From: Halorubrum lipolyticum DSM 21995
GTDB taxonomy: Archaea; Halobacteriota; Halobacteria; Halobacteriales; Haloferacaceae
Direction of reading: 5' to 3'
NCBI RefSeq assembly: GCF_000337375.1
Contig: NZ_AOJG01000028.1
Location: 152,628-204,235 of the forward strand
DNA length: 51,608 nt
The notes under the pieces were generated by a model. The model ran no database searches, had not been told where the DNA came from, and worked only from the letters and a program-made list of their open reading frames with translations. This document shows positions 25,421 through 45,058 of the stretch, in pieces (the stretch's first letter is position 1; every line of letters begins with the position of its first letter). The position numbers were made by a program, and so were the translations under genes.

Positions 25421-25500
25421 TCGTCGGTCCGAATCGTCTCGTCGGTCCGAATCGTCTCGTCGCTCGAATCGTCCCGTCGCCCGAATCGTCCCGTCGGTCC
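25421..25500. repeat. Imperfect tandem repeat, unit about 17-18 nt
   Basis: About four and a half copies of a unit resembling TCGTCGGTCCGAATCGTC. The first two copies are identical and later ones drift (CTCGAATCG, CCCGAATCG). It ends about 20 nt before the TATA element of the dehydrogenase gene. It is too short and irregular for a CRISPR array. Confidence 0.65.
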
Positions 25501-25549
25501 GCTTCCTATCACCCATTCATTTATTACGATCAGTACGGATCGTTGCCGT

Positions 25550-36955: not shown

Positions 36956-37066
36956 GCTTGGGTGTCGGATACGCGCATACCCCATAAAAGCGCGACGGAC
37001 CGGAGATTTCGGGACCGGACGACGGTGCAACGATCGCGCTCGCGGTGACGGCGTCGCCGCCGGCTC

Positions 37067-37141
37067 GTCAGTCCAGCACGTCGACCGGCTCGTCAGTCCA
37101 GCACGTCGACCGGCTCGTCAGTCCAGCACGTCGGCCGGCTC
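37067..37141. repeat. Three 25-nt tandem repeats over a gene end
   Basis: A 25-nt unit beginning GTCAGTCCAGCACGTCG starts at 37067, 37092 and 37117; the first two copies are identical and the third differs by one base. The third copy is the 3' end and stop codon (37118-37120) of the sulfatase gene, so the other two are downstream copies of it. Confidence 0.9.
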
Positions 37142-38545
37142 GTCGGGGTAGGGTTCGCGGACGAGCCGGCCCATGTCGATCTCCTGGTACGGGGCGCGCC
37201 GGAGCGTCCCGTTCTCGACGAACTCGTCCGCGCCCGCCTCGGTCAGTTTCGCAGCCAGCGCGTCGCGGAGTTCGGCGACGACCTCGGGGTTGTCGGCGGC
37301 GCAGTCGTCGAGTTCGTTCGGGTCGGCGGCGAGGTCGAACAGCTGTTCGCGGCCGCCGTTGCGCATGAACACGTACTTCCAGCGCCCCTCGCGCACCATC
37401 CCGGTGAAATTCGGCGGGAGCCGCGGCGTCCGGTGGTAGCCGAACAGCCGCTCCCGCGGCTCCACGTCGCCCCGGATCGCCCCGAGCACGTCGACGCCGT
37501 CGCGGAGTTCCTGGTCGCCGGCGGCCGTCGTCGCGATGCCGAACAGATCGGTCAGCGCCACGAGGTCGTCGCGGCGGACGCCGGCCGGGAGCTCCGCGGG
37601 CCAGCTCACGAGGAACGGGACGCGACAGGACGACTCGAAGAACGACGTCTTCTCCCAGCCCCGGTGGTCACCGAGCAGTTCGCCGTGGTCGGAGAAGAAG
37701 CAGACGAGCGTGTCGTCGGCGTCGTCTCGAGCCTCGACCGCGTCGAGCAGGCGACCGATGCGCCGGTCGAGCTCGGAGATCATCCCGTAGTAGTGCGCCT
37801 TTATCAGTCGGACGGTGGTGTCGTCGACGCCACCCTCGCGAGTCGTCCAGAAGTGGTGGTTCTGCGCCGGGATCTTCTCGTCCGCGTGGTCGGTCTCGAG
37901 GTCCCCTTTGATCGGATTGCCGAGACGGTCGGGGTCGTACATCCGGTCGAAGGGCGGCGACGGCGCGAACGGCGGATGGGGCGGTTCGTACGAGACGACG
38001 CCGAAGAACGGCTCGTCCGTGTCGCGGCCGACGAGGTCGACCGCGCGGTCGGTCGTCCACGCCTCGTAGTTGTCGTCCGGCGGGAGCCGGTTCTGTTGCG
38101 GGAGGTGCACCATCGCGCCCTGCCGGGCGGTCGTCTTGACCTCGTGGCCCGTGTCGTCGCGGAACGCCTCGAAGCTCAGGCGCCGGTCGTAGCCGAGGTC
38201 GATATCGCGGGGGTGCGCGTGGTACTTCCCGACGAGGAACGTCCGGTAGCCCCGCTCGCCCATGCTCCGGGCGAGGAAGGGACCGAACCGCTCTTCGAGG
38301 TGACTCGCGTCGCGCTTCTCGTTGCCGAGATACCCCGTCGAGACGGCCTCACAGCCGGTTCGAATCGTGTGTCGCGCCGGAATGCAGATGGGGTCCGGCG
38401 AGTAGGCGTTGGTGAAGGAGACGCCGCGGTCGACGAGCCGGTCGACGTTCGGGGTGCGGATTCGGCTGTTTCCGAGCGCGTGGATCGTGTCCGCCCGCTG
38501 CTGATCGGTCACCACGAACAGGACGTTGGGGCGAGTATCGCTCAC
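37118..38545 (-). CDS. Sulfatase (Cys-type formylglycine sulfatase, no signal peptide)
   Basis: The GTG at 38545 gives 475 residues and lies about 26 nt from the TATA element at 38569-38574; the GTG at 38584 lies upstream of that element and is rejected. The alkaline phosphatase-superfamily signature is clear: PNVLFVVTDQQRADT with D14, then C54-I-P56-A-R58, the C-x-P-x-R motif whose Cys becomes formylglycine. GKYHAHPRDID and FFSDHGELLGDH carry further metal and active-site residues. It needs a maturation enzyme, not seen in the window. With no export signal it would desulfate imported oligosaccharides. Its presence points to a sulfated polymer, such as algal ulvan, rather than plain pectin alone. 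Confidence 0.88.
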   Translation of the reverse strand: MSDTRPNVLFVVTDQQRADTIHALGNSRIRTPNVDRLVDRGVSFTNAYSPDPICIPARHTIRTGCEAVSTGYLGNEKRDASHLEERFGPFLARSMGERGYRTFLVGKYHAHPRDIDLGYDRRLSFEAFRDDTGHEVKTTARQGAMVHLPQQNRLPPDDNYEAWTTDRAVDLVGRDTDEPFFGVVSYEPPHPPFAPSPPFDRMYDPDRLGNPIKGDLETDHADEKIPAQNHHFWTTREGGVDDTTVRLIKAHYYGMISELDRRIGRLLDAVEARDDADDTLVCFFSDHGELLGDHRGWEKTSFFESSCRVPFLVSWPAELPAGVRRDDLVALTDLFGIATTAAGDQELRDGVDVLGAIRGDVEPRERLFGYHRTPRLPPNFTGMVREGRWKYVFMRNGGREQLFDLAADPNELDDCAADNPEVVAELRDALAAKLTEAGADEFVENGTLRRAPYQEIDMGRLVREPYPDEPADVLD

Positions 38546-41309: not shown

Positions 41310-41738
41310 TCACTCGAGGTCGTATCCCCACTCCCGCAGCGTCGCGGCGATCTCGTCCGTGTGTCGAAGTCCGACGAGGAGCGCGGCCTCACGGAGGTCG
41401 GCCTTCTTGACCTGTTCCCCGAGCTCCGACTCGAGCGTCCGTGTCGCCTCGCGCTGTGTGTCGACGGTCGACTGCTGGAGGTGGAGCTGTACGGTCTGTT
41501 CGCGGCCGTCAGTGATGCTGTTCCGCGTGAGCACCCACGGGAGGTCTCGCTGCGATGATCGGGCCGCGGCGTCTGTCGAAGATTGTATCGCGGTATCCGG
41601 TGTATCATCGGGTGCCGGTTCGGCCGTGTCGTCGGCCGCGTCGGCCTCGGTCTCCGTCTCTGCCGTCGACTCACTCCCCTCGTTCGCCGTCGTACTCCCC
41701 CAGTCGTCGTCGGCGGCGCCGCTCTTGAAGCCGCCCAT
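41310..41738 (-). CDS. Small partner protein encoded with ParA
   Basis: 142 residues from the ATG at 41738, whose first base is the last base of the parA stop codon. The N-terminal 65 or so residues are acidic and low in complexity (rich in Asp, Glu, Thr, Ala), probably disordered. The C-terminal half (SQRDLPWVLTRNSITDGREQTVQLHLQQSTVDTQREATRTLESELGEQVKKADLREAALLVGLRHTDEIAATLREWGYDLE) looks helical and may dimerise or bind DNA. Position and size fit the centromere-binding or adaptor partner of a ParA system. No recognised ParB fold; the role is inferred from the overlap. Confidence 0.65.
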   Translation of the reverse strand: MGGFKSGAADDDWGSTTANEGSESTAETETEADAADDTAEPAPDDTPDTAIQSSTDAAARSSQRDLPWVLTRNSITDGREQTVQLHLQQSTVDTQREATRTLESELGEQVKKADLREAALLVGLRHTDEIAATLREWGYDLE

Positions 41739-42616
41739 CACGCCGTCACCCCCTCTTCCTCGAGCGCCCCGGGTTCAGGCGGGTTCGGCGCCTCGATTCC
41801 GCCCTGCGTTTCGATGAATCGGGCGATGCGGTCAAACTGGGCGAGCGTCTCGACCTCGTAATCTCGGCGACGATCGCGGTGAGTCTGGACGTACTTGAAC
41901 GCGGAACACTGCTGACGCCAACACCCCTCCATCAGCGACGTTCGGTCCCCGATGACCTCGGGGACCTCGTACGGGATCGTCTCGAGCGTCTCTTCCTGGT
42001 CGCGCGTGCCTTTGAATCCGATCGGCACTGCACCCAGGACGCCGACGTCGATGTTGAGCTGGTCCGCGAAGTTCGTCGCGAGCTCTTCGAGCCCCTCGAC
42101 GGCGGCCTGTCCCTTCGCCGACGGTTCGATCGGGAGCAGCAGGTTCCGGGTGGCGTAAATCGCGTTGTAGAGGTGCGAACCCTCGGTCGCCGGTGGATCG
42201 CAGATGAGGATGTCGTATTTGTCGGGCACGCCCGCTTCCCCGAGAACCCGCCGCAACTGCGCGTGGACGTTGTACGCGTCACCGAAGTCCTCGGCTTTCT
42301 GCTGTTCTCTGTCGAGGTGTTGGGTGAGATCAGACAGCGAGTTGTGTTCCGGGATGATGTCGATCCCCTCGGCCGTCTCGATGAGGTCCTCGAACGGACC
42401 GCGCGGACTCCCGACCATGTGACGGACTAAGCTGTCCGCGTTGGCGTCCGCGCGATCGGTGTCAACGCCGAGGAGGCGGCTCAAGTCGCCGTCCTGTGGA
42501 TCGAGCGGGACGACGAGGACGTCGAGGCCGGCCCGCCGGTGAGCGACGGCCGCATTCGCTGCGAGCGAGGTCTTCCCGACGCCCCCCGCCTCACTGTATA
42601 CCGTGTACGCAAGCAT
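41738..42616 (-). CDS. parA: ParA-family partition ATPase
   Basis: 292 residues. The Walker A region is YSEAGGVGKTSLAANAA (K15-T16); A10 stands where ParA/MinD proteins usually have their signature lysine (KGGVGKT). Walker A' is VLVVPLDPQDGDLSRLLG and Walker B is YDILICDPPATEGSHL. The C-terminal part contains RRDYEVETLAQFDRIARFIE. ParA ATPases move plasmids or chromosomal origins with a partner protein bound to repeats. Here the partner gene overlaps the stop and a repeat array lies directly upstream. The module points to a megaplasmid or an integrated element. It could also be an orphan ParA with another cargo. Confidence 0.88.
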   Translation of the reverse strand: MLAYTVYSEAGGVGKTSLAANAAVAHRRAGLDVLVVPLDPQDGDLSRLLGVDTDRADANADSLVRHMVGSPRGPFEDLIETAEGIDIIPEHNSLSDLTQHLDREQQKAEDFGDAYNVHAQLRRVLGEAGVPDKYDILICDPPATEGSHLYNAIYATRNLLLPIEPSAKGQAAVEGLEELATNFADQLNIDVGVLGAVPIGFKGTRDQEETLETIPYEVPEVIGDRTSLMEGCWRQQCSAFKYVQTHRDRRRDYEVETLAQFDRIARFIETQGGIEAPNPPEPGALEEEGVTA

Positions 42617-42681
42617 AGGAGTATGATCAGGCTCTTGGCTAATGAATGTATGTCAGACACTCATCTGCGTCACCTGGATAT

Positions 42682-42863
42682 CTATCTTAGGCACCTGTCT
42701 TAGTCATCTATCTTAGATAACTGTCTTAGGTATCTTATTCATGCCTCTAACTCACGTGTCTGCCCCGTCTTTCTAAGACATCTAGGAAATGTTTATTAGG
42801 TATTCATCTTATGTTCCTATCTTAGTTCTCTATCTTATATTCTCACCTTAGATATCCTCCTTA
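42682..42863. repeat. 13-nt-phased repeat array upstream of parA (iteron/centromere-like)
   Basis: Block A (42682-42733) has four adjoining 13-mers beginning CTATCTTAG, CTGTCTTAG, CTATCTTAG and CTGTCTTAG. Block B (42799-42863) has five adjoining 13-mers each ending in CTTA (ATCTTA, ATCTTA, ATCTTA, ACCTTA, TCCTTA). An inverted copy, CTAAGACA, sits between them at 42773. The whole gene-free gap 42617-42954 is AT-rich against its flanks. Direct repeats in strict register next to parA are typical of partition centromeres or plasmid replication iterons. Confidence 0.8.
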
Positions 42864-42954
42864 GGCGTCTACATACGGCGGAAACGAACGATATCGAAGT
42901 CACAAACAGCAGTTCTCCGTCCGAGACCGGGACCGGCCAGTGCACCGGAGGCCG

Positions 42955-44256
42955 TCATCTGTCGTTCACCCGCCGATCCGTCTTCGAGAACGCTTCGGTC
43001 GCCATGTCCGCGCGTTCGGCCGCCTCGATGTGCTGGTACGCCGCTCGGACCTGTTCCTCGCTGTTATCGAGGTACCGAGCGGCCGCGGCGTAGCCGAACT
43101 GGCGGACGAGCACCTCCCCGACACCTCGGCGACCCCCGTGCAGTTCGAGGTAGTCGCCGTCGAGCGAGAGGTCCAGCTCGTCACGGCGCTCGGCGAGGGC
43201 GTCGTGCGTCCAGAGGCGTTTCATGATCGACCGGGCGCCGCCAGTGGTGAGCGGCTTCGGGGCGTCGAGGTCGTGCTCGGCGGCGACGATCAAGTCGGGG
43301 ACTCCGTCGCGGACGGTCTCGATCGCGTCCTCGTCGAGCCCGGCGTCGGCGAGTCCATCGGTAACGTGAGCCGCGAGCGACGGCCGGTGCAGCGTCGTGA
43401 ACACCGGCCACGACTCCGGAACGTCCAGTATCTCGGCGTAGCGCTCCAACGGCGTACTGACGGGATCCGGGAGCGAGGCCTCCTTCCACTCGCGACTCTT
43501 CCGGAACACCGTGACGCTGCTGTCCGCGAGGGACACGTCCCGCCAGCGGATCCCGTTTCGACCCTCGCGGTCCTCCTTCGGAGCCGAGAGGAACTCCGAA
43601 CCGCGTAGTCCGGTGTAGGCGATGACGTACACGAGCGCCTGCTCGCGACACCGCTGGTACGCTTCGAAGCGCGCCTGTTGTTTGGTCCGCCACAGCTCGC
43701 TCTCCGGATCGCCCCGGTCGGCGTGCGGAACCTCGATCGCGCCGAGCGCGTCGAACGCTTCGGAGACGCGACGATCGACGAACTGCGTGATCAGGTCGCG
43801 GTGAATCGGCCCCCACGCCTGCTGGTCGCCTGGACGGCGGCCGTCGTTCTCCGGCAGCGGATCTTCGGCGTCCGACTCGCGGGCGTAGTGCCGCGAGATG
43901 TATCCCTGCGCGTGGGCCCACCCGCACCACGACGCGACGTGTGCGTAGTAGGTGAGCACCGTCCCGGCGGCGTGTCCATCTGCCGAGAGATACCGCGCGT
44001 AGTCCGAGAAGACCGTCGTGTCGAGGTCTGCGAACCGCACCGTGTCGCCGTCGACGACGCCCGCCCACGACTCCGGCGGCGACGCGTTCGCCGGATCGCT
44101 CTTCCCGCCGAGACACCACTCCCTGAATCGGGTGAGCTCGCGCTCGGCGTCGACGCGGTATGCGCCCTGCCTGCCGAGGTCGCCTTTCCCCTTGTCGGCG
44201 TAGTATTTCGAGAACGTGTCGCCGATCGGCGTCTCGACGGAGCGGCGACCCGTCAT
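42955..44256 (-). CDS. Tyrosine recombinase/integrase
   Basis: The ATG at 44256 has a GGAG 5 nt upstream and gives 433 residues; a GTG two codons earlier is the alternative. An N-terminal core-binding domain (FSDYARYLSADGHAAGTVLTYYAHVASWCGWAHAQGYI) precedes the catalytic domain: R218 in AYTGLRGSEFL, H373-G-G-R376 in LHGGRRGVGEVL, and Y407 in VRAAYQHI as the nucleophile. It may resolve or integrate the element marked by ParA. No tRNA end or obvious att duplication flanks it. It lies just beyond the repeat array and is transcribed toward parA on the same strand. Confidence 0.9.
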   Translation of the reverse strand: MTGRRSVETPIGDTFSKYYADKGKGDLGRQGAYRVDAERELTRFREWCLGGKSDPANASPPESWAGVVDGDTVRFADLDTTVFSDYARYLSADGHAAGTVLTYYAHVASWCGWAHAQGYISRHYARESDAEDPLPENDGRRPGDQQAWGPIHRDLITQFVDRRVSEAFDALGAIEVPHADRGDPESELWRTKQQARFEAYQRCREQALVYVIAYTGLRGSEFLSAPKEDREGRNGIRWRDVSLADSSVTVFRKSREWKEASLPDPVSTPLERYAEILDVPESWPVFTTLHRPSLAAHVTDGLADAGLDEDAIETVRDGVPDLIVAAEHDLDAPKPLTTGGARSIMKRLWTHDALAERRDELDLSLDGDYLELHGGRRGVGEVLVRQFGYAAAARYLDNSEEQVRAAYQHIEAAERADMATEAFSKTDRRVNDR

Positions 44257-45058
44257 CGCCACTCCGGACCGGGGAGGTCGTGACGTCGCAATACCGCGAC
44301 AGCAGTGGCGATCCGGCGGGAGCGCCAGTGTGTGGAAGCGTCGGCCATAGTTCTGAATCTGTCTCGTTTGGGGCCACGGGTGGGGGTCACTAAGAACTTA
44401 CTCTGTCTTACTCAGCTAAGACAACGTAAATCATATTCCCGTCTGTTCGCGATCCCACGCGCTAACTGCCTGATTTCGGCCGCAAGAGCGAGTTTACTCG
44501 GGATAGGCAATGTATAAACTTCATATCGATATACGAAACTATCGCGCCCGGCGCGTGCTGTACGAACCTATGTATGAGACATCCAACGCAGACGGTGGGT
44601 CGCGTCCCGCTTGTGCAATTCGAAAGAGTCGGGAGACGGACCCGTCTTCCTTCTGTTCTGGAGGGCTTCCTGGGCCGTTACACGTGTATGCTTGTAATTA
44701 CAACAGGACGGAATGGCGGACACCACACCTGAGCCCGGAGTTTCCGCATAGACTGACAGGGATGACGGACTGAGATCGAGTTCGTGACGCCGCGATTCTC
44801 ACGCTCTCGATGGCGTCCGTGGAAACAATTATCAGTAAAATAGGACGATCACCGATCAGGCGAATAGAAAAAAAGACAGGTAATTGTGGTATATATTCTA
44901 TCATAACTAATATCGGAAGCAGCGGTGCTGAACAGTCATAACGCTCTCTTGTAAACGATACTGTGAGAAAGTATGTACGAGCATAATATAAAAGATATGA
45001 CTTATTTAAAATATTATAATGCCCATAGATTTTTCTCCAGCGGCTCTCACAGTGGTGT
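44257..45058. other. Long AT-rich gene-free stretch upstream of integrase and TrmB genes
   Basis: About 800 nt between divergent genes. The open frame at 44510-44773 has no domain or start signal. The part from 44820 to 45050 is strongly AT-rich with several TATA-like runs (ATATTCTATC, AATATAAAAG, TTATTTAAAATATTATAAT), more than one promoter needs. It includes the dyad at 44404-44423. It could hold an origin, an attachment site or an RNA; no proof is visible. Confidence 0.5.
44404..44423. promoter_or_regulatory. Dyad TGTCTTA-N6-TAAGACA upstream of the integrase gene
   Basis: Perfect 7-bp inverted repeat. Each arm is the same word as the TGTCTTA units in the array upstream of parA, suggesting one DNA-binding protein sees both places. 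Confidence 0.6.

Follow-up and report, generated by a model that had tools for sequence, protein, structure and literature searches.

Repeat arrays with a 13-bp pitch upstream of parA as candidate centromeres of a probable haloarchaeal partition system

This analysis concerns a parA locus in a 51,608-nucleotide stretch of Halorubrum lipolyticum DSM 21995 (contig NZ_AOJG01000028.1, positions 152,628 to 204,235; hereafter the window, to which all coordinates refer). The locus very probably (about 0.8) represents a haloarchaeal partition system of a plasmid or megaplasmid-type replicon, made up of a ParA-like ATPase, a putative centromere-binding protein (the partner) and an array of 13-bp iterons. 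The array, its phasing and conservation, the match between repeat word and partner, the exclusion of like types and the ribbon-helix-helix (RHH)-like model of the partner were established by comparison. From these, we infer that the small partner uses its C-terminal RHH-like domain to bind the 13-bp repeats in front of parA, and that the spacing of the units leads to a single phased nucleoprotein complex. The array would thereby act as plasmid centromere and, as the parA promoter region is part of it, would double as the operator for autorepression of the operon. With its invariant K/G motif, the flexible N-terminus of the partner may contact and stimulate ParA, which together with ATP would bind host DNA and move or space the plasmid copies. 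Since the lineage-specific words would be read by matching domains at a fixed 13-bp geometry, different replicon types could coexist.

The genes for ParA, partner and a tyrosine recombinase are all located on the minus strand. The array therefore precedes parA as its promoter or upstream region; relative to the recombinase, whose transcription runs toward the array, it is on the downstream side. In the intergenic stretch of 338 bp (42617-42954) between parA and the recombinase gene, nine 13-nt units are clearly recognizable; they form two blocks and are accompanied by an inverted unit. Block 1 (42682..42733, plus strand) consists of four exact units of the form CTRTCTTAG, with the words CTATCTTAG/CTGTCTTAG starting at 42682, 42695, 42708 and 42721. 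Its lattice is extended by three degenerate units that begin with CT (42734..42772, plus strand; starts at 42734, 42747 and 42760), followed by the inverted unit (42773..42781, minus strand), set 91 nt (7 x 13) beyond the first unit of the block. Block 2 (42804..42868, plus strand) contributes five units around a CTTA core, again in 13-nt steps (starts at 42804, 42817, 42830, 42843 and 42856), on a lattice offset by 5 nt. The two blocks are thus out of phase (42733 to 42804), and secondary periods of 22/35 and 17/30 recur in relatives, which suggests a preferred phase shift within the arrays.

Strict 13-nt repeats in two blocks between parA and a tyrosine recombinase had been described in the initial annotation, and both the coordinates and the shuffled controls bear this out. 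The autocorrelation at 13 amounts to 35/52 positions in the 338-bp stretch, compared to a mean of 19.4 and a maximum of 28 in 2,000 dinucleotide shuffles. The repeat word was counted 7 times, versus 0.29 in shuffled sequence. The G+C content of the stretch is 0.45, versus 0.66 for the window. A stringent two-unit array pattern was found at a single place in the 3.4-Mb genome, namely at this array.

It had also been proposed to look for the array next to this ParA family in other haloarchaea, and it is indeed conserved beside most homologs; this speaks for the initial reading, which a lack of conservation would have counted against. ParA relatives (E <= 1e-30) occur in 236 of the 392 genomes of the window's order, and 410 plasmid records contain a more or less distant ParA match. 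For 75 loci (the named ones among L035-L112 and the window), periodicity was surveyed over the 500 bp that precede parA. In 52 of them, 13 was the strongest single period, and on average 26 and 39 followed. When four control regions from these loci were analysed likewise, period 13 ranked first in only 0/71, 0/69, 3/79 and 1/78 cases, and multiples of three dominated. Together with the shuffles, these controls rule out chance and codon periodicity as the source of the 13-nt period. In genomes with multiple parA copies, the strongest period was 13, 26 or 39 in 53 of 58 copies, down to a ParA identity of 37%; in the four copies at 32-33% identity it was none of these. The same array is also present on three virus-like IMG/VR contigs. 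These contigs, the many plasmid records and an Orc1/Cdc6 gene on the array's own contig count in favour of the partition reading. In loci L184, L185 and L188, on contigs of 1.9-3.2 Mb, a divergent ParA (33% identity) is accompanied by an RHH-like partner and the promoter element GTCTGAC (see below), with no 13-nt array. These perhaps represent a chromosomal branch of this ParA family.

The 13-nt pitch is constant and the repeat word varies between lineages. The TCTTAG dialect of the window is shared by Halorubrum, Haloarcula, Natrinema and others, and TGTTCA is found in Haloferax, Halobellus, Halobacterium and others. Other repeat words include GTTNCAA, AGCTATAC, TTGAACC, CTACTA and CTGTTACAG. 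In four dialects, the word tracks the type of the putative DNA-reading strand of the partner. The strand TVQLHL goes with TCTTAG (on average 4.59 words per upstream region), RVPLFL with TGTTCA (4.97), LTFFV with GTTNCAA (4.43) and QxPxFx with AGCTA (4.94), whereas mismatched combinations mostly yield 0-0.4 words per region and 1.38 at the highest. The automatic partner finder failed to assign eleven loci in this table, including the window, which nevertheless combines a TVQLHL partner strand with a TCTTAG array and so matches that dialect. Such a correspondence would be expected if the protein and its binding site had evolved together.

The 26 multi-copy genomes contain 58 copies and 42 co-resident pairs, and the expected values were obtained by shuffling the copies among genomes. 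Pairs with at least 70% ParA identity were never observed (0/42), although 5.4 were expected (P = 0.0015). At 75% identity, 0 pairs were found versus 3.2 expected (P = 0.03), and at 65% there were 5 versus 9.0 (P = 0.06). The repeat words differ in all five co-resident pairs of 66-69% identity. In this sample, co-resident par copies never shared a type, as predicted by partition-mediated incompatibility.

The partner gene (41310..41738, minus strand) encodes 142 aa from its ATG, with an alternative GTG at 41741, and overlaps the stop of parA. By tblastn, a relative of the partner was found in 77 of 79 loci, and in nearly every locus its gene overlaps parA. With a coarse neighbour caller, no more than 40 of 65 loci appeared to have the partner, which is probably an artefact of the long overlapping open reading frames (ORFs). 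Only parA and the partner are universal among the loci; no other neighbour and no third gene is conserved. Across 67 aligned members, the invariant residues are K5 and G7 in the N-terminal part, and R72, R79, D114, R116, E117 and G138. The N-terminus is acidic and predicted to be disordered, with AlphaFold2 pLDDT values under 50 at residues 15-62 and 64-71. When the C-terminal domain was modelled alone (pLDDT 86.5, pTM 0.70), an extended segment followed by three helices was obtained. The top five VIA-align matches for this domain were TraM (Z 5.0), NikR (4.2), CopG (4.2), PrpA (3.5) and MazE-mt1 (3.3), all of which we take, partly from established knowledge, to be RHH proteins. CopG could be superimposed on the model at 1.6 A across all 42 residues of its chain. 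The C-terminal domain is therefore probably an RHH domain as far as the model can be trusted, and the earlier statement that the small acidic protein has no known fold is probably wrong.

By sequence, the partner family stands apart. Searches in PDB sequences and in Pfam, NCBIfam and PHROGs yielded no match, and none of the latter three has a model that names the family. The whole-length model gave no useful fold match. A comparison by hhalign with ParG (letters checked against 1p94), CopG and omega likewise gave no match. In a search of the phylum with the partner profile, members were found in the window's own order only.

The parA gene (41738..42616, minus strand) encodes 292 aa with the P-loop YSEAGGVGKT. 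The protein matches Pfam AAA_31 (3.3e-16) and CbiA, PHROG 164 (ParA-like partition protein, 8.3e-24) and the Soj of known structure (3e-6), and thus shows the P-loop ATPase fold of the ParA/MinD deviant Walker A ATPases. The signature lysine of that family (KGGxxK[ST]) is missing. The position was set by aligning YSEAGGVGKT to NQKGGVGKT of the structurally characterized Soj, and it is occupied by Ala in 143 and by Ser in 4 of the 147 homologs matched by the P-loop motif. Four SESGGTxKT variants also have Ser there. The protein is accordingly ParA-like, yet lacks one defining feature of the classical family. Residues 8-16 (SEAGGVGKT) contain no signature lysine, and K168-G169 is near-invariant; K168 could be a stand-in. 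The P-loop already starts at residue 8 (of 292), which leaves no room for an N-terminal extension or an N-terminal helix-turn-helix (HTH).

Several points weigh against the assignment as a partition system. The RHH likeness derives from a monomer model with a low Z score (5.0 at best), Foldseek alone returned nothing significant for the C-terminal domain model, and no sequence profile ties the partner family to RHH proteins. Shared ancestry is a confounder in the match between repeat word and partner, and near-identical copies that were merged in draft assemblies could mimic type exclusion. Furthermore, the ParA is without its signature lysine, and the plasmid nature of the window's contig is a presumption.

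A wider reading would unite the partition genes and the recombinase in one maintenance unit, in which the partner controls or recruits the recombinase, for example for multimer resolution. The recombinase gene (42955..44262, minus strand) was recognized by its catalytic residues, its Pfam and PHROG matches being weak. R220, K255, H375, R378 and Y409 are invariant among 11-12 homologs, so that the catalytic set of tyrosine recombinases (R, K, H-x-x-R, Y) appears intact. Upstream of this gene, the dyad TGTCTTA-N6-TAAGACA is present at 44404-44423, as had been annotated. It is formed by two inverted repeat words 13 nt apart (44403..44424), starting at 44403 on the plus and 44416 on the minus strand, in the array's own register, and may be a second binding site. 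In all five loci (window included) with the recombinase upstream of parA, the dyad is retained: no more than two changes are seen in it, and its distance is constant. However, the entire upstream region of the recombinase is conserved in these five loci, so that the dyad is not singled out. In most loci sharing this par system, the recombinase is absent or located elsewhere. Besides the window, a close homolog upstream of parA was found only in L035-L038, and any recombinase relative within about 5 kb in just 11 of 65 loci, where neither its position nor its strand is constant. An AAA+ protein that we take from its sequence to be Orc1/Cdc6-like is equally frequent near parA (11/65 loci). The recombinase was therefore rejected as a core component and is regarded as an accessory neighbour, and its control through the dyad is only suggested. 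The single-unit reading is compatible with the partition system, for the window's sublineage only, and remains doubtful even there. Of the self-contained partition and maintenance system proposed in the initial annotation, the comparison supports the partition module and an array to which the partner probably binds, but not the recombinase as a component. A 45-aa ORF (44253-44390, minus strand), the stop of which overlaps the recombinase ATG (ATGA), begins with a GTG 14-33 nt behind the dyad; its frame is open in the same region of L037 too.

Two further elements were located in the parA promoter region. The TATA-like sequence TTCATTAG (42639..42646, minus strand) lies about 23-30 nt before the parA ATG. 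Its position and its conservation in relatives suggest a TATA box, and a leaderless transcript would fit. The element GTCTGAC (42652..42658, minus strand) is found at -42 from the parA start and is conserved across repeat dialects. Of 97 loci, 67 have it within the 60 bp that precede parA, 48 of them at exactly -42, and the same survey gave 6 matches in all other upstream DNA. Its reader is presumably a factor common to the dialects. With these elements, the array might be regarded as an operator for autoregulation of the parA operon only, the centromere being elsewhere. This is unlikely, since the roughly 190 bp of repeats go far beyond what an operator needs and the stringent array pattern has no second place in the genome. 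Moreover, operator and centromere are commonly one and the same DNA in type Ib systems. It is similarly unlikely that the repeats serve as iterons of a replication origin, read by an initiator, and have no centromere function. In favour of this reading, the array is AT-rich, iteron-like and intergenic, and Orc1/Cdc6 is found near parA in the loci counted above. Against it, no initiator gene is consistently linked to the parA loci, the Orc1/Cdc6 gene on the array's own 242-kb contig is about 94 kb away, and the repeat word varies with the partner and not with an initiator.

As a partition system, the locus is most similar to type Ib, represented by ParF-ParG-parH of TP228 and delta-omega-parS of pSM19035 (PMC9178275). 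Shared features are a ParA without N-terminal HTH, a small (here putative) binding protein whose gene directly follows parA, repeated sites (here the 13-nt arrays) that precede parA and overlap its promoter, and a flexible N-terminus combined with a C-terminal RHH domain, which in the present partner is probable and RHH-like by its model. At 292 aa, the ParA is slightly longer than the usual 200-250 aa or so, and it is without the signature lysine. Unlike in type Ib, the pitch is fixed at 13 bp with many unrelated repeat words, and the partner has no detectable sequence similarity to ParG, CopG or omega.

In its gene order, with the small binding protein after parA and the site in front, the locus agrees with type Ib (PMC9178275) as well as with SegAB (PMC12284271), which is known from Sulfolobales and some Euryarchaeota (PMC12284271; PMC5120986). 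SegAB is likewise archaeal, the 3' end of segA overlaps segB as parA overlaps the partner gene here, and SegB, itself an RHH protein, binds in front of segAB at sites that are 13-bp palindromes (PMC12284271; PMC5120986). SegAB, however, is a chromosomal system, the sites of which occur singly at scattered positions and form no tandem array. Its dispersed palindrome TCTAGASTCTAGA (PMC12284271) differs from the present array, which has another word in tandem at one genomic place. Homology between SegB and the partner was not detected, with no SegB sequence set having been compared directly. McdA type 1 is also a ParA-family ATPase without signature lysine (SGGQGKT), but it positions carboxysomes with McdB instead of DNA and has a large mid-protein extension (PMC8262871). 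The AspA-ParB-ParA system of the Sulfolobus plasmid pNOB8 (PMC5120986) similarly achieves archaeal plasmid partition with a ParA ATPase, but uses three proteins, whereas no third gene is conserved beside parA here.

The module is embedded in a catabolic locus, as was annotated before: the flanking genes encode a sulfatase, GH28, SMP-30, TrmB, GH3 and parts of an ABC transporter. Two other tandem repeats were observed in the window. One has a 25-nt unit (37060-37144, 3.4 copies, 98% identity) and lies between an enolase-superfamily gene and a sulfatase gene; the other has an 18-nt unit (25421-25501, about 4.6 copies).

What is new here is the fixed 13-bp pitch with interchangeable words, the unnamed partner and the ParA without signature lysine. 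No description of the 13-nt arrays or the partner was found in the accessible literature, a coverage that leaves out most subscription papers and all preprints. For haloarchaeal megaplasmids, no centromere or centromere-binding protein was found in the searchable literature. On balance, we lean towards a distinct haloarchaeal partition class, in which the centromere would be defined by its 13-bp pitch and not by its sequence. At least seven words with matching RHH-like partners would then serve as a code of plasmid identity by which incompatibility groups are set, and the ParA would work without its signature lysine. Haloarchaea carry many megaplasmids, for which this locus offers a defined candidate centromere and a partner without family name. 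The predicted incompatibility groups would be readable from the sequence, and the repeat word could act as a key for plasmid typing.

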